Assembly (NCBI RefSeq): GCF_012971745.1 | Contig: NZ_CP048834.1 | Coordinates: 124,001 to 188,000 of the forward strand | Length of the DNA: 64,000 nt | Reading direction: 5' to 3' | From: Starkeya sp. ORNL1 | GTDB lineage: Bacteria > Pseudomonadota > Alphaproteobacteria > Rhizobiales > Xanthobacteraceae | Shown: one piece after another, positions 3,337-38,172 of the stretch | Layout: every line of letters starts with the position of its first letter | Numbering within the stretch: the first letter of the stretch is position 1 | Notes under the pieces: model-generated | Database searches by the model: none | What the model was told of the DNA's origin: nothing | The model's input: only the letters and a program-made list of their open reading frames with translations | Made by a program: the position numbers and the translations under genes

Positions 3337-4026
3337 TCAGTCGCCTTTGAGGTGCTGTGCTTCCGCGTCCGGCGTGAGCGCGGCGCCGGCACCGGCGCTT
3401 TCGAGAAAACCCTCGACCAACTCGGCCGCCGATCCGGAGGCGGGAGCGGTTTCGACGGTAGCGGCGACCAGCAATTCGGTCCGCCAGCCGCGACCATGGT
3501 CGCAGCCGACGCCGCGCAGCGCTTCGCTTTCGCTCGTCAAGGTAAAGCTGCGGCAAAGACCATCCTTGATCAGGTAGGTGCCGCTCAGCACAAGCTGCGC
3601 CGGGCCGATACCGAGCGGGGCGCCGCTCGGCTGCCTGCCCAGCGCCGTCGCTACTGCCGGCGAACCGGCCACCCCGGTAAGTGTCTCCGGCGCCGAAAGC
3701 CGGCCGACCCAATAGCTCCCGAGCCCGAGGACAAGTGCCAGCGCGGCGGCGAGCGGTAGCGCGGCACGGCTGCGCCATGCCGGCCGGCGTGCCGGCAAGA
3801 TCGCGGCGAGCAGGCGTTCGGGCGGCGGCGCATCGAGCAAGGTTGCGAAGGCATCGCGGGTCGCAGTGCGCGAGCGGCGGTACCCGTCGATGCGCCGGGC
3901 AATCCCCGGCTCGGCGGCGGCGTGCTCCACCGCAGCCGCGATCTCCGGCGGCAGTTCGCCATCCACATAGGCCATCAGCATTTCGTCGGTGATCTCGTCG
4001 CGGGTGATTTTGGCCTCGCCGCTCAT
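3337..4026 (-). CDS. Membrane-anchored anti-sigma factor
   Basis: 229 residues from ATG 4026, whose ATGA overlaps the stop of the upstream sigma gene, so the pair is translationally coupled. The N-terminus (DEITDEMLMAYVDGELP, about residues 10-26) is the typical start of a cytoplasmic anti-sigma domain. A single TM helix lies near residues 88-107, followed by a periplasmic domain of about 120 residues with two cysteines (C158, C175) that could form a disulfide. No HxxxCxxC zinc motif is present, so it is not a ZAS-type redox sensor. By family role it should hold the partner ECF sigma factor at the membrane until an envelope signal is sensed. A longer frame extends to 4368 but is antisense noise within the sigma gene. 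Confidence 0.85.
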   Translation of the reverse strand: MSGEAKITRDEITDEMLMAYVDGELPPEIAAAVEHAAAEPGIARRIDGYRRSRTATRDAFATLLDAPPPERLLAAILPARRPAWRSRAALPLAAALALVLGLGSYWVGRLSAPETLTGVAGSPAVATALGRQPSGAPLGIGPAQLVLSGTYLIKDGLCRSFTLTSESEALRGVGCDHGRGWRTELLVAATVETAPASGSAAELVEGFLESAGAGAALTPDAEAQHLKGD

Positions 4027-4541
4027 CTGCGTGCTCCCATGCCGGCCGCGCGCGGCTCCGGCGCGCCCTCCAGGGCCGTCGCGACCGCTGTCCGCGCCCG
4101 GGCGAGGCGGCTCATGACGGTGCCCACGGGGATATCGAGCGTGCTCGCGGCGTCGCGGTAGCTCATCTCCTCGACGCAGACCAGCATCAGCACCGAGCGC
4201 TGTTCTTCCGGCAGAGCGGCGATGGCGGCCTGCGTCGCCTGCAAGGTGAGCCGGGCTTCCACCGTGGTGCGGCCGTCCTGGCCCGGCAGGTCCGGCCACT
4301 CCTCGATCGGCGCCTCGGGGCGGCGTGCGCGGAACGCGTCGATCCAGAGATTGCGCAGGATGCGGCACATCCAGCTGTCGAAATTGGTGCCTGGCTGCCA
4401 GCTGGCGCTGGCGGCCAACGCCCGCTCGCAGGCGCCCTGCACCAGGTCGTCGGCAGCCTCGCGCGAGCGGGTCAGTGACCAGGCGAAGGCCCGGAGCTTC
4501 GGCAGCGCGCGGATCAGCAGCGGTCTTATGTCGACGCTCAA
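4023..4541 (-). CDS. ECF-family RNA polymerase sigma factor
   Basis: 172 residues. I place the start at TTG 4541 because GGGGA lies six bases upstream and the product then begins just before sigma region 2. Region 2 spans about residues 12-75 (SREAADDLVQGACERAL, then FDSWMCRILRNLWIDAFR). Region 4 is at about 100-155, with the helix-turn-helix SYRDAASTLDIPVGTVMSRL. No region 1 or 3 is present, as expected for ECF factors. It overlaps the anti-sigma gene by four bases. A GGAAT-N16-CGTTA promoter lies 29-54 bases upstream, and the same motif heads the divergent protease gene and the poly-Asp protein gene. Autoregulation and control of both secreted proteins are therefore likely (inference). Confidence 0.88.
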   Translation of the reverse strand: MSVDIRPLLIRALPKLRAFAWSLTRSREAADDLVQGACERALAASASWQPGTNFDSWMCRILRNLWIDAFRARRPEAPIEEWPDLPGQDGRTTVEARLTLQATQAAIAALPEEQRSVLMLVCVEEMSYRDAASTLDIPVGTVMSRLARARTAVATALEGAPEPRAAGMGARR

Positions 4542-4569
4542 GACAGGTCCCCGGTCTCGTTCGGCGACA

Positions 4570-4595
4570 TAACGTAAGGTAAGGATGCTTATTCC
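4570..4595 (-). promoter_or_regulatory. Predicted ECF promoter of the sigma/anti-sigma operon
   Basis: On the minus strand GGAAT (4595-4591) is followed after 16 bases by CGTTA (4574-4570). This matches the alphaproteobacterial ECF pattern GGAAY-N16/17-CGTT. It lies 29 bases upstream of the TTG start and is back to back with an equivalent plus-strand motif. Confidence 0.62.
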
Positions 4596-4603
4596 GCTCG
4601 CGT

Positions 4604-4629
4604 GGAATTTTTTCAGTCGCGTCACGTTT
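4604..4629 (+). promoter_or_regulatory. Predicted ECF promoter of the subtilisin-like protease gene
   Basis: GGAAT (4604-4608), a 16-base spacer, then CGTTT (4625-4629). The expected transcription start is within a few bases of ATG 4638, so the message would be leaderless or nearly so. This argues against the in-frame GTG at 4602, which lies upstream of the -35 box. Confidence 0.62.
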
Positions 4630-4637
4630 GGTGTGTC

Positions 4638-5909
4638 ATGAACCTTTCCCGGGCTGTCGTCGTCTTGCTGCTCGCCGCGCTTCTGGGGGCGTTCCCGCTC
4701 GCGCCGGTCGGGGAGGGGTTCGCGATCTCGCAAGCGCTTGCCGATGATGATGACGATGACTGGGGCGATGATGACGATGACGATGATCGCCCGCGTCCGC
4801 GCCGCGTGGCCCCGCCTCCATCGCCGCGTCAGGCGCGGCCTCCTGCTCCGCGTCCGCTGCCGGAATTCGTCGTCGCTGTGCCGGCGGGCGCCGATCTCGA
4901 CCGCATCGCGGCGCTCGGTTTCCGGGTGATTGCCCGCGAGCGGCTGGCGCTGACCGGCCGGGAGACCGCCCGGCTGCGCCCGCTGCGGCGGCTGAGCCTG
5001 GCGCAGGCGCGTCGCCTCATTGCCGGGGCGGTGCCGCAGGCGGCGCTCGATCTCAATACGCGCTACCGCCCCAGCGATTTCCCCTGCGCTCCCGATGACT
5101 GCCCTGCTCACGCCGCGGTCGGCTGGCCGCCGCCGGCCGCGGGCTGTCGGCTGGCGCCGCGCATCGGCCTGGTCGATACCGGGATCGATCTGGACGCACC
5201 TGCGCTGCGCAGCGCGCGCATCACCGAGCTCTCGACCCGCAGCAAGGGACGGGCCGCGGCGGGAAATGCGCATGGCACGGCGGTGGCGGCGCTGCTCGCT
5301 GGCGCCGCGGACGGGCCGGCCCCCGGTCTCATGCCGCGGGCGGAGATCATTGCAGTCGATGCCTTCCACCGTGCCGGAGGCGAAGAGATCGCCGACGCCT
5401 ATGATGTCGCACGCGCGCTCGACCGCCTTGCTGGGCACGACGTCGACATCGTCAATCTGAGCCTGGCCGGCCCGGAAAATGCGGTACTTGAGGAAGCGAT
5501 CACCGCCATGGCGGCGCGCGGCGTGGTGCTGGTGGCAGCCGCCGGCAATGAAGGCCCGCGTGCGCCACCGCAATTTCCGGCCGCCTATCGCGATGTCGTC
5601 GCGGTGACGGCGGCGGATGTGCAGGGGCGCGCCTATCGCCAGGCGACGGGTGGACCGCACATCGCCTTCGCCGCGCCGGGCGTGAAGCTGTGGACCGCCT
5701 CGGGCAAAGCGGGCCGGCTGCGCTCCGGCACCTCCTATGCCGTGCCGTTCGTGACCGCGGCGCTGGCGACGCAGCGCCTCGACGCGCCGGAGGTGCCGAC
5801 CGCTGATCTGGTGGCGCGGTTGGCCAGGAGCGCGCGCGATCTCGGCGAGGCCGGGCGCGACCCGGTGTTCGGCTGGGGCATGGTGAAGATGCCGGCGTGC
5901 GGGCCGTGA
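4638..5909 (+). CDS. Secreted subtilisin-like (S8) serine protease with poly-Asp tracts
   Basis: 423 residues from ATG 4638. A signal peptide (about 1-35, ending SQALA) is followed at once by six Asp, WG, seven Asp and a basic Pro-rich linker (RPRPRR and on). The catalytic domain runs from about residue 174 to the end: Asp180 in GLVDTGID, His212 in NAHGTAVAALL, oxyanion Asn304 in AAGNEG, and Ser366 in SGTSYAVP. All catalytic residues are present. Residues 75-135 may be a small inhibitor/propeptide-like domain. The export signal places it in the periplasm or outside. It is divergent from the ECF sigma operon and convergent with the small poly-Asp protein gene. Substrate unknown; it could be an envelope-stress effector or take part in the signalling that releases the sigma factor. 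Confidence 0.85.
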   Translation: MNLSRAVVVLLLAALLGAFPLAPVGEGFAISQALADDDDDDWGDDDDDDDRPRPRRVAPPPSPRQARPPAPRPLPEFVVAVPAGADLDRIAALGFRVIARERLALTGRETARLRPLRRLSLAQARRLIAGAVPQAALDLNTRYRPSDFPCAPDDCPAHAAVGWPPPAAGCRLAPRIGLVDTGIDLDAPALRSARITELSTRSKGRAAAGNAHGTAVAALLAGAADGPAPGLMPRAEIIAVDAFHRAGGEEIADAYDVARALDRLAGHDVDIVNLSLAGPENAVLEEAITAMAARGVVLVAAAGNEGPRAPPQFPAAYRDVVAVTAADVQGRAYRQATGGPHIAFAAPGVKLWTASGKAGRLRSGTSYAVPFVTAALATQRLDAPEVPTADLVARLARSARDLGEAGRDPVFGWGMVKMPACGP

Positions 5910-5922
5910 CAATCAGGCGGCC

Positions 5923-6216
5923 TCAGTCGTCGCCGTCATCATCGCCGTGCCGGCGAAAGCGCCAGCCGCGATAGCGGCCGCGATCGTCATCGTCGTCATC
6001 ATGGCCGCGGTAATAATTGCGCGGCGTGACCTGGTAATGGTGCCACTCGACGTGGCGCTGACGTATCCAGCGGCGCCGGCCGTCATCATCATCATCGTCG
6101 TCGTCGACCAGCAGAAGCGGTGCGGTCAGCGCAATCGGTGTGCCCGCGTGCGCCGGGCCGGCCAGTAAGCCAAGGCCCAGCAGCGCGCCCGCCATGGGGA
6201 TGACCAGGATTTTCAT
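5923..6216 (-). CDS. Small secreted poly-Asp protein (97 aa)
   Basis: The start is ATG 6216, with GGAGAG upstream. The signal peptide is about residues 1-24 (ending AHA). The mature part has eight Asp (38-45), an Arg/Trp/His-rich stretch, six Asp (73-78), another Arg-rich segment, and ends GDDDGDD. Alternating acidic blocks and Arg/His/Tyr segments suggest divalent-cation binding or interaction with a charged polymer; no named domain is recognised. A GGAAT-N17-CGTT motif lies 62-87 bases upstream, which places the gene in the same ECF regulon as the neighbouring protease, itself marked by poly-Asp blocks. Only 13 bases separate the two convergent genes. A longer frame to 6345 would run through the promoter and is rejected. 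Confidence 0.75.
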   Translation of the reverse strand: MKILVIPMAGALLGLGLLAGPAHAGTPIALTAPLLLVDDDDDDDDGRRRWIRQRHVEWHHYQVTPRNYYRGHDDDDDDRGRYRGWRFRRHGDDDGDD

Positions 6217-6277
6217 GGGATGCTCTCCGTTCTCGCGGAGGCTCGAGGCGGCGCGCCTCCCGGCCTCACGCTCGCAG

Positions 6278-6303
6278 AACGAGGATGTGCGGCGGTTTAT
6301 TCC
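6278..6303 (-). promoter_or_regulatory. Predicted ECF promoter of the poly-Asp protein gene
   Basis: On the minus strand GGAAT (6303-6299), a 17-base spacer, then CGTT (6281-6278). Same motif as the two promoters at 4570-4629. It gives a leader of about 55 bases to ATG 6216. Confidence 0.55.
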
Positions 6304-8977: not shown

Positions 8978-10441
8978 CTACCTCAGCCGGTCGCCGAGCA
9001 GGAACTGCAAGGCGCGATCGAGCCGGATATGGGGAAACGGCAGCGGAACGCCATCGGCATTGCGCTCCACCACCGGTGGCCGGAAGCGCAGGAAGCGGAA
9101 GTCGCCGCCCGTGGCGTCCGACAGGCCCTTGAAGCCCATGGAGGGGTCGAACAGCGCGGATGGATTTTCGGGCAGGTCGCCGGGGAAGACGGCAGCCTCC
9201 GCCAGCCCGTCAAATGCGTCGGCACCGTGCTGGCCGGCTTCCGGCACGCCGATGATGGCGGGAAGCTGCGCCCGCCCGCGCTTCACGCTGGCCTCGCGGG
9301 TGGCGCGCACCGCGGCGAGCGCGACGACGTCGATCTGCGCACCGGCGCTCTGCGCGCGGTCCAGTGCGCGCTCGACGAGACGGCGCAGGATCGCCTCCAG
9401 CGGGTCGTGGCTGGTGTGGTGGAGATGGTCGGCCTTGGTGGCGGCAAACAGCACGCGGTCGATGCTGTGGCGGAACAGGCTGGTCAGCCAGCTATTCCGC
9501 CCGGTGCGGAAGGCGGCGAGGATGCCGTCGAGTGCAGCCTCCAGATCGGCGAGCGCGGCCGGGCCGGCATTCAGCGCGGCAAGCACGTCGATCAGCACGA
9601 TCTGCCGGTCGAGCCGGGCGAAATGATCGCGGAAGAAGGGGCGGACCACGCGCTCCTTATAGGCCTCGTAGCGGCGCTCCATCATCGCCTGCAGCGAGCC
9701 GGCGGGCGCCTCCATGTCGGCCTGCACGTCGATCGGCGCGAAGGTCAGCGCCGGCGAGCCTTCGAGGTCGCCAGGCATCAGGAAGCGGCCGGGCGGCAGC
9801 AGGCTCATCGAGACCGCCTCGGCACGGCAGGCGGCGAGATAGTCGGTGAACAGGCTGGCGAGGCGGCGGGCCTCGGTCTCGTCGGCCGGGGCGGTGCCAT
9901 CGGTGGCGTGCAGCGCGGCGAGGAAAGGTTCGGCCAGGGCATGCCGCGCTGGAGCGCGAGCGAGCTGCAGGCTGGTGGTGGCGAACTCGGCGTAGCTTTG
10001 GTTGAGCAATGGCAGGTCGAGCAGCCATTCGCCGGGATAATCGACGATGTCGAGGGTGAGGGTGCGGTTGCCGCCGCGCGCCGGGGCGTAATCGATGGCG
10101 AGCCGCAACTCGCTGATGCGGCGGGTGGATTCCGGCCAGCGGCGCTCGCCCGCCAGCGTCTCCAGATGCGCCTCATAGGCAAAGCGCGGCACCGCGTCGT
10201 CGGGCTGCGGCTCCAGCACCGCGCGGGCGATGCGCCCCTCATGCATCGCCTCGAACACCGGCAGCCGCCCGCCGCGCATCAGCGCATGGATCAAGGCGGT
10301 GGTGAACACCGTCTTGCCGGCGCGCGAAAGGCCGGTGATGCCGAGCCGCAGCGTCGGCGAGGCGAGGTCTTCCGCCCGGTCGAGCAGGGTCAGCGCGGCA
10401 AGCCGCGCCTCCTCGACCAACCCCTCATACCAGGACGGCAT
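8978..10441 (-). CDS. YcjX-like P-loop NTPase
   Basis: 487 residues. A Walker A motif lies at 37-44 (GLSRAGKT), preceded by GITG; the YcjX family segment LTLDIVDYPGEWLLDLPLL follows. A hydrophobic strand ending in Asp (QIVLIDVLAAL) and a candidate nucleotide-specificity region (LFAATKADHLHH) lie downstream, as in the dynamin/Ras-like fold of YcjX. It is translationally coupled to sixA (the two genes share one base in TGATG) and to ycjF. In proteobacteria ycjX and ycjF are almost always paired. The physiological role is unresolved. Confidence 0.9.
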   Translation of the reverse strand: MPSWYEGLVEEARLAALTLLDRAEDLASPTLRLGITGLSRAGKTVFTTALIHALMRGGRLPVFEAMHEGRIARAVLEPQPDDAVPRFAYEAHLETLAGERRWPESTRRISELRLAIDYAPARGGNRTLTLDIVDYPGEWLLDLPLLNQSYAEFATTSLQLARAPARHALAEPFLAALHATDGTAPADETEARRLASLFTDYLAACRAEAVSMSLLPPGRFLMPGDLEGSPALTFAPIDVQADMEAPAGSLQAMMERRYEAYKERVVRPFFRDHFARLDRQIVLIDVLAALNAGPAALADLEAALDGILAAFRTGRNSWLTSLFRHSIDRVLFAATKADHLHHTSHDPLEAILRRLVERALDRAQSAGAQIDVVALAAVRATREASVKRGRAQLPAIIGVPEAGQHGADAFDGLAEAAVFPGDLPENPSALFDPSMGFKGLSDATGGDFRFLRFRPPVVERNADGVPLPFPHIRLDRALQFLLGDRLR

Positions 10442-35790: not shown

Positions 35791-38172
35791 TTATCGGTCG
35801 TTGCCGGAATTCGCTGCGGCCTGGATCGCAGACCAAACCCTCAGCGGAGTTGCCGGCATCTCAAGATCTGGCACGCCGACCGCATTCAGGGCGTCGCACA
35901 CCGCGTTCATGACGGCGGAGAGCGCCCCCACCGTTCCCGCTTCGCCAATGCCCTTGGCACCAAGTGGGTTAACCGCCGTGGGTATCTCACGGAAATCCAG
36001 ATCGAAGCTCGGCAGGTCGGAAGCGAGCGGCAGTCCATAGTCGCTGAAGGAGCCGGTCAGCAATTCCCCGCTCTCGTCATAGATGATGGCTTCCTTTACC
36101 GCCTGGCCGAAGCCCTGCGCGATGCCGCCATGCATCTGGCCGTCGGCAAGCATCGGATTGAGCACGCGCCCGATATCTTCGACCGCGGCGTAGTTCAAGA
36201 GCTTCACCTCGCCGGTTTCGGGGTCGATCTCGACCTCGCAGGCGTGGGAGCCGTTCGGATAGGTGACGCCGCTTGACTGGAACTCGGCCTCGGCGAATAG
36301 CCGTCGGTCATGATTGGCACCCTCCGGTCTGTCTTCCCCGAGGGCGGCAAGCTCCGCCAGCGTGACCGTGCGATCGGTCCCGACGATGCGGAACGCGGCG
36401 GCGCTGAATTCCAGGTCTGCAGCCGCGGCTTCGAGCATGTCGGCCGCCCGCTCGCGCGCCGTCTTGATCAGCCGGTCCACCACGACGGATACTGCCGAGC
36501 CTCCAACCACCACGGAGCTCGACCCGCCGCTGCCGCGTCCGATGGGCAGCCGGTCGGTATCGCCTTGCGCATAGAAGATGCGATCCGGAGTGATCCCCAG
36601 CTTGAGCGCGGCGATGTGCGTCATCGCCGTTTCAAGCCCCTGGCCGGCCGACATGATCCCGCATTCAAGGCTGAACGTGCCATCGGGATGGGCGGTTATT
36701 CGCGACATGTCCTTGCCCGGCCGCTCAACCGGGCCGCCGGCGACCTCGATGGGATTGGCGAAGCCGATGCCGCGAAGTTTGCCCTTGGATTTCGCGATGG
36801 CCTGGCGTGCCGGAAAGCCGGCGCGATCGATCAGCTCGGCGACACGCCTCATGTTGCCGGGGAAGTCCCCGCAATCATAGGTGTAGACGAGGTCGGTGCG
36901 GAACGGCATTGCCTCCGGCGGGACCAGATTGCGCATGCGCAGCTCGAAGGGGTCGAAGCCGTGCTCGCGCGCCGCGAGGTCGATGGTCCGCTCGATGGCG
37001 TAGGTGGCCTCTGGGCGACCGGCGCCGCGATAGGCCGAGGTCTGGACCGAATGGGTGAAGACGCCGCGGATTTCGGCGAACAGGGCAGGGGTCCGGTAGA
37101 CACCGGCGGCGCCGCCGATATTGCGCAGCAGCGACAGCGACCGCGCAGTGAGATAGCCGCCCACATTGACATCGCAATGGACCGAGAAGGCGAGAAAATT
37201 ACCCGCCTCATCCAGCGCGAGCTCGGTCTTGAGATGGGTGTCGCGGGCGTGGTCGTCCGACAGGAACGCCTCGCTGCGCGTGCTTTTCCAGCGCACCGGG
37301 CGTGCGAGGCGGCGGGCTGCCCACAGCACCAGAACGTCTTCCCGGTAGGGGCCGGTCTTCATGCCGAAAGAGCCGCCGACGTCGTCGGCGATCACGCGGA
37401 TTTCGGAGGGATGAACCTTGAAGACGTTCGCCGCCAGGGCATTCCGCAGGATGTGCGGACTCTGGCAACTGGTCCGCAACACCAGCCTTCCATCCTCCAC
37501 CGAACCCGTGACGATGCGCGGCTCCAGCGGCGCGGCCACGACGCGGCTGATCTTGATGACATGACGGCTTACATGGGCGGCGGACCGGATCGCCGCTTGC
37601 ACGGCGTTTTCGCTCCCCTGTCGCCAGGTCAGCATGACGTTGTCGGGAAACTCCTCCCACACGGCCGGCGCCCCAGCCGCAAGCGCATCCTCGATCCGAG
37701 GTACTGCGGCAAGTTCCTGATAGGCGACCTGCACGAGTTCGGCCGCTTCCTGCGCGATAGCCGCGGTCTCCGCGACCACCAGGGCGACCGGCTCACCGAC
37801 GTGGCGGCATATGTCGCCGCAGAGGACCGGGCGCGGCGTTCCGGCGTCCATCGGACCTTCGATGGTGGAGAAATGCACCGGGGAGGCGATGCTCGCAAGG
37901 CCGTCCGCAGCGGCGTCCCGCGCCGTGAGAACGGCCATCACGCCCGGCACCGCCAGAGCGGCGGAGGTATCGACCGAGAGGATGCGGGCGTGCGCGTAGA
38001 TGGAACGCACGACGCCCGCGTGCAGCAGGCCTTCCGGCTTCAGGTCGTCCGCATAACGTCCCCGACCTTGCACGAGAGCGAGGTCCTCGCGCCGCCGCAG
38101 CGACTCTCCGTAGCCTGGGATCGTAGACGTGGTCGTGCCTGCGGCTGGCCGGACCTTGGCAAATGAAGTCAC
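35791..38172 (-). CDS. Xanthine-dehydrogenase/CoxL-family molybdopterin-binding subunit, orphan
   Basis: 793 residues from GTG 38172 (GAGAGA upstream); an in-frame GTG at 38217 is less likely. The a/b hammerhead domain starts near GRGRYADDLKPEGLLHAGVVRS. The molybdopterin-binding domain carries DVGGSFGMK, the form II signature SAYRGAGRPEA (not the AYRCSFR of true CO dehydrogenase) and the conserved catalytic Glu in KGIGEAG near the end. Neither the 2Fe-2S small subunit nor the FAD medium subunit is adjacent, so electron-transfer partners must be encoded elsewhere. It lies 86 bases downstream of tctC copy 1, in the same direction, so it is probably cotranscribed. Confidence 0.87.
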   Translation of the reverse strand: MTSFAKVRPAAGTTTSTIPGYGESLRRREDLALVQGRGRYADDLKPEGLLHAGVVRSIYAHARILSVDTSAALAVPGVMAVLTARDAAADGLASIASPVHFSTIEGPMDAGTPRPVLCGDICRHVGEPVALVVAETAAIAQEAAELVQVAYQELAAVPRIEDALAAGAPAVWEEFPDNVMLTWRQGSENAVQAAIRSAAHVSRHVIKISRVVAAPLEPRIVTGSVEDGRLVLRTSCQSPHILRNALAANVFKVHPSEIRVIADDVGGSFGMKTGPYREDVLVLWAARRLARPVRWKSTRSEAFLSDDHARDTHLKTELALDEAGNFLAFSVHCDVNVGGYLTARSLSLLRNIGGAAGVYRTPALFAEIRGVFTHSVQTSAYRGAGRPEATYAIERTIDLAAREHGFDPFELRMRNLVPPEAMPFRTDLVYTYDCGDFPGNMRRVAELIDRAGFPARQAIAKSKGKLRGIGFANPIEVAGGPVERPGKDMSRITAHPDGTFSLECGIMSAGQGLETAMTHIAALKLGITPDRIFYAQGDTDRLPIGRGSGGSSSVVVGGSAVSVVVDRLIKTARERAADMLEAAAADLEFSAAAFRIVGTDRTVTLAELAALGEDRPEGANHDRRLFAEAEFQSSGVTYPNGSHACEVEIDPETGEVKLLNYAAVEDIGRVLNPMLADGQMHGGIAQGFGQAVKEAIIYDESGELLTGSFSDYGLPLASDLPSFDLDFREIPTAVNPLGAKGIGEAGTVGALSAVMNAVCDALNAVGVPDLEMPATPLRVWSAIQAAANSGNDR

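Follow-up and report, generated by a model that had tools for sequence, protein, structure and literature searches.

The locus at positions 3337-6303 of the window, by which we mean the whole 64-kb stretch analyzed from a 6.29-Mb single-contig genome (G000), encodes an ECF sigma factor, a membrane anti-sigma factor, a secreted protease, and a small poly-Asp protein, with the same promoter-like pair of sequences in front of each of its three transcription units (Table 1). This raises the question of whether these four genes form a self-contained envelope-stress module new to the literature, as a preliminary description of this DNA had proposed, or whether they belong to a known regulon that reaches beyond the locus. 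Comparison of gene order and promoter sequences assigns the locus to the RpoE6-type ECF26 module/regulon, which has been described and is poorly understood.

Table 1. Genes and predicted promoters of the locus, in window coordinates
Feature	Position	Strand	Details
Membrane anti-sigma gene	3337-4026	-	229 aa, overlaps sigma stop codon
ECF sigma factor gene, RpoE6-type	4023-4541	-	172 aa, TTG start likely
Predicted sigma/anti-sigma operon promoter	4571-4595	-	GGAAT-N16-CGTT; kept in G320
Predicted protease promoter	4604-4628	+	GGAAT-N16-CGTT; same spacing kept in G320
Secreted S8 pro-subtilisin gene	4638-5909	+	423 aa
Small secreted poly-Asp/Arg protein gene	5923-6216	-	97 aa, convergent with protease gene
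Predicted poly-Asp gene promoter	6278-6303	-	GGAAT-N17-CGTT; kept in G320 and G092

The sigma factor matches Pfam Sigma70_r2 and r4_2 above cut-off and TIGR02937 (sigma70-ECF) with 79.2 bits (cut-off, 42.9). Its gene is followed by the anti-sigma gene, and both are divergent from the S8 protease gene, which is the RpoE6-type arrangement. Exact matches to GGAAT-N16/17-CGTT number three in the 64-kb window, one before each transcription unit of the locus, and no other gene start in the window carries the pair; the three-site observation of the preliminary description is thus confirmed, while the interval that it gave, 4023-6303, contains all three sites and leaves out the anti-sigma gene. If one mismatch to GGAATA..CGTT is allowed, the only further sites in the window are 9474-9498 and 37265-37289. 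The sites before the operon and the protease have the form of RpoE6-type promoters (GGAATA / GT, CGTT), save that the protease site reads GGAATT and so departs from the GGAATA consensus at the sixth base. The last base of its CGTT lies 10 nt upstream of the A of the start codon (ATG), and the protease message is therefore probably leaderless or nearly so.

All three sites are kept in a congener, G320 (GGAATAATCATCATTACCTTACGTT, GGAATTTTTTTCGTCGCGTCACGTT, and GGAATGAAACCGCCTCGTGCCCCGTT), where the locus is colinear (79.8% DNA identity over 3.87 kb), the protease is 77% identical, and the poly-Asp site reads GGAATG, not GGAATA. In a more distant genome, G092, the sigma, anti-sigma, protease, and poly-Asp genes are again present, and each of the three units is preceded by a site.

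A module of this kind has in fact been published. In Sinorhizobium meliloti, according to Lang et al. 2018 (PMC6180224), the gene for the ECF26 sigma factor RpoE6 is divergent from that for the serine protease SMa0142, an arrangement called “widely conserved” in ECF26; the promoters of SMa0142 and ecfR6 were mapped (consensus GGAATA/GT), and RpoE6 overexpression raised both genes. The suggestion that the module was new to the literature is not supported, since these GGAATA promoters and the rpoE6-ecfR6/SMa0142 arrangement are on record there. An S. meliloti plasmid locus in our comparison (L063) has the same gene order as both the published rpoE6 locus and the window; its protease promoter, GGAATAGACCGACGACTCAGCCGTT, is identical to that published for SMa0142 across 25 nt, and its DUF6065 and anti-sigma promoters are one base off those reported for SMa0148 and ecfR6. 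It is this orthology, with its shared gene order, and not ECF group models, that points to ECF26 as the group of the window sigma.

RpoE6-EcfR6/SMa0142 and the window share a sigma/anti-sigma tandem, a divergent S8 protease with an Asp-rich linker, and GGAATA..CGTT promoters, and EcfR6, like the window anti-sigma, has a transmembrane helix and two cysteines in its periplasmic part and lacks the zinc motif. They differ in the sigma-operon site, which in S. meliloti lies within the 3' end of the rpoE6 gene, where it serves ecfR6, and in the window precedes the sigma gene. The neighbors also differ: a VOC/glyoxalase gene, a DUF6065 gene, and an SSN-repeat open reading frame (ORF) adjoin the S. 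meliloti module, whereas the window module adjoins the poly-Asp gene and the SSN and DUF6065 genes are 2.9 Mb away. Since rpoE6 itself is reported to have an RpoD/RpoH-like promoter (PMC6180224), sigma autoregulation in S. meliloti differs from that predicted here. The SSN-repeat ORF of the S. meliloti plasmid locus (L063:3696-4061, minus strand; 121 aa), which has a signal-like start and its own GGAATA..CGTT site, opposes an annotated “hypothetical protein” (3760-4152, plus strand) whose annotated strand may be wrong.

ECF26 also includes a sulfite branch (S. meliloti RpoE1/RpoE4 and Starkeya novella SigE), which shares the −35 GGAAT and whose described targets are sulfite-oxidizing enzymes (PMC3511301, PMC6527743). 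We considered this branch and rejected it, as its reported −10 is CGTC (PMC6527743) whereas the three window sites carry CGTT, and none of the four module genes encodes a sulfite-oxidizing enzyme.

Our preferred explanation, to which we assign a probability of roughly 85%, is that an RpoE6-type ECF26 regulon has its core at this locus, where a sigma factor held by its anti-sigma drives its own operon, the protease, and the poly-Asp gene. Judging by its domain make-up and its place in the operon, the membrane anti-sigma would hold the sigma off until a signal outside the cytoplasm, perhaps via a conserved cysteine pair, freed it. The freed sigma would then act at the GGAAT-N16/17-CGTT sites to transcribe the operon that encodes it, the divergently oriented pro-subtilisin gene, and the poly-Asp gene, a step for which the evidence here is conserved sequence and for which the protease and anti-sigma promoters of S. 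meliloti are reported as mapped and RpoE6 dependent (PMC6180224). To judge from their sites, distant SSN-repeat, DUF6065, and DUF1236 genes would probably also be driven by the window sigma or by a paralogue at 1.266 Mb, and the protease would be exported as a zymogen before it acted.

How widely the arrangement is kept can be seen from relatives of the protease. At an E value of 1e-20 or below they occur in 3 of 30 genus genomes, this one included, which makes the distribution of the module in the genus patchy; at 1e-30 or below they occur in 98 of the 297 genomes sampled from the order. We compared 33 loci: the window, the second module of the same genome (L001), one Shinella locus, the S. 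meliloti plasmid locus, and loci from the 29 best other genomes, which, being the best protease matches, bias the conservation figures upward. A sigma gene lies near the protease in 31 of the 33, the remaining two having only 1.5 kb of flank. Exact sites were found in the 650 nt upstream of the protease match at 19/33 loci and in the sigma operon in 27/31, and the reversed pattern was found in neither region (33 and 31 loci, respectively). On the Shinella plasmid (L062:7112-8771), a GGAATA..CGTT site after the S8 gene is followed by a small protein rich in Gly, Ser, and Arg that has a twin-Arg start and resembles the linker of that protease in Gly/Ser composition, and then by a 417-aa PqqD-domain protein.

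The window anti-sigma has the N-terminal helices and transmembrane helix of a membrane class I anti-sigma, and, as the preliminary description had stated for this single sigma/anti-sigma pair, it lacks the HxxxCxxC zinc motif, which is likewise absent from all 50 rows of its relatives. This absence is ordinary, because about 44% of class I anti-sigma domains are reported to lack the motif as well (PMC7406223). Cys158 and Cys175, both in the predicted periplasmic domain, are invariant (50/50 rows) and are predicted to be cross-strand neighbors in one hairpin outside the membrane, which suggests that the pair is a disulfide sensor.

The S8 protease carries a signal peptide, an Asp-rich linker, a propeptide, and a catalytic domain with the triad D180, H212, and S366 in a pro-subtilisin fold, and it is probably a secreted zymogen that processes envelope or extracellular proteins. 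The poly-Asp protein, which has no Pfam match and has relatives in G092 and G320, is apparently an extra target and a rare one. Regulated proteolysis of anti-sigma factors is common, and sigma and protease genes are divergently paired in 30 of the 31 loci with a sigma gene; both points would suit a protease that is itself part of the signaling, cutting the anti-sigma or an inhibitor and so closing a positive feedback loop. Such a role would be compatible with our preferred explanation, yet we consider it unlikely, as known site-1 proteases are mostly from other families. In S. meliloti, moreover, the protease is described as an RpoE6 target (PMC6180224).

It is less probable still that the general stress sigma factor EcfG (ECF15, with the PhyR-NepR system) drives these genes and that the local sigma adds little. 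The EcfG promoter, GGAAC-N-CGTT, is one base away; the window sigma also matches Pfam PhyR_sigma2 (E = 2.4e-9); weak NepR matches occur in 5 of 34 anti-sigma rows (best E = 3.9e-5); and 27 of 40 S. meliloti RpoE6 targets are reported to be RpoE2 targets too (PMC6180224). However, the fifth −35 base is T at all three window sites, as in ECF26, and not the C of the EcfG promoter, and the window module has a membrane anti-sigma with a C-terminal domain, in contrast to the soluble partner switching of the EcfG system. Lang et al. further report that ecfR6 rises only with RpoE6, that rpoE6 is not activated by RpoE2, and that stresses triggering the RpoE2 regulon did not switch on the unique targets of RpoE6 (PMC6180224). 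The PhyR and NepR matches could reflect a common origin of ECF26 and EcfG regulation.

Genome-wide, the bare motif proved not to be rare, with 45 matches in 6.29 Mb where the rate in shuffled windows (mean, 0.64 matches per 64 kb) predicts about 63. Three matches anywhere in the window were reached by 3 of 100 shuffles and by 43 of 1,000 first-order Markov simulations, while three sites within 1,740 nt, as at the locus, were reached by none of the 1,000. Because the bare count does not exceed expectation, the argument depends on how the sites cluster, on their location in front of genes, and on their conservation. We examined the surroundings of 19 of the 45 matches, and at least 10 of these (L004-L013) had no gene of this kind within 260 nt downstream. 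Such stray matches, like the unremarkable total, would fit three window sites that arose by chance and have no function, but we give that notion almost no credence given the simulated clustering, the retention of all three sites in the congener with the same placement at homologous loci, and the promoters mapped in S. meliloti (PMC6180224).

The genome-wide search also bears on the proposal that the regulon was self-contained with only local targets, which is not supported, as the same sites stand before genes at 0.92, 1.26, and 3.03 Mb. Nine of the 45 matches begin GGAATAA. Eight of them lie upstream of genes, seven at distances of no more than 180 nt and one at about 260 nt; these genes encode the two sigma factors, the poly-Asp protein, three DUF1236-type proteins (the L003 one recognized by its resemblance to that of L001 rather than through Pfam), an SSN-repeat secreted protein, and a DUF6065 protein. 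From the ninth it is about 590 nt to a start that, as we read it, resembles glucose-6-phosphate dehydrogenase. At 1.264-1.268 Mb (L001) is a second module with sigma, anti-sigma, divergent S8 protease, and DUF1236 proteins; its sigma, at 1.266 Mb, is 48% identical to the window sigma, its protease has a Gly/Asn-rich linker, and no exact site was found at that protease. A third S8 protease gene (L131, 3780000-3792000) lies near another, distant ECF sigma gene and has no GGAAT..CGTT sites.

The genes for the SSN-repeat protein (122 aa) and the DUF6065 protein are convergent (L002:5378-6658, about 3.0314-3.0327 Mb), and both have a GGAATAAA..CGTT site. Such a pair also adjoins the sigma/protease module, each gene again with a site, in the S. 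meliloti plasmid locus, G285, and G247, which makes the two genes likely trans targets in this genome; in G029 (L103) the pair stands apart from the module. Taken with their sites, the DUF1236, SSN-repeat, and DUF6065 genes are probably distant targets of the window sigma or its 1.266-Mb paralogue. In S. meliloti, RpoE1, RpoE4, and RpoE6, but not RpoE3, are reported to activate one heterologous ECF26 promoter (PMC10880074).

The sigma-operon site takes two positions among the 31 loci with a sigma gene. It stands before the sigma gene only in 13, including the window and L061 (cut near the sigma end), and near the sigma 3' end only, 18-69 nt before the stop, in 11, a position from which only the anti-sigma would be served, as reported for the mapped ecfR6 promoter (PMC6180224); three loci have both and four have neither. 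On the sigma tree, in which 16 of 38 inner branches are weak, the “before” label changes 2 times (shuffled mean, 10.9) and the “3-prime” label 3 times (shuffled mean, 9.7), and neither count was as low in any of 500 shuffles, a clustering that close relatives ease. We infer that a site before sigma would give positive autoregulation and a site in its 3' end negative feedback.

Put together, these features allow a broader and rather doubtful proposal: a disulfide in the cysteine pair might sense periplasmic thiol/redox chemistry; the two wiring types, with few changes of type on the sigma tree, might separate positive autoregulation from pure negative feedback through the anti-sigma only; and the regulated products might be secreted proteins of low complexity (poly-Asp and SSN-repeat proteins among them) that can stand in for one another and that serve the secreted subtilisin as substrates or partners. 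No description of the poly-Asp target, the two sigma-operon site positions, or the anti-sigma cysteine pair was found in the open-access literature searched, and the new material here, comparative and drawn from sequence, would consist of these three together with the trans targets. RpoE6-type modules are probably common, to judge from the 98 of 297 genomes of the order with a protease relative, not every one of which need sit in such a module. The locus offers a compact, conserved test case for asking which genes respond, whether the cysteine pair is a sensor, and whether the sign of the feedback, positive or negative, depends on where the promoter lies.
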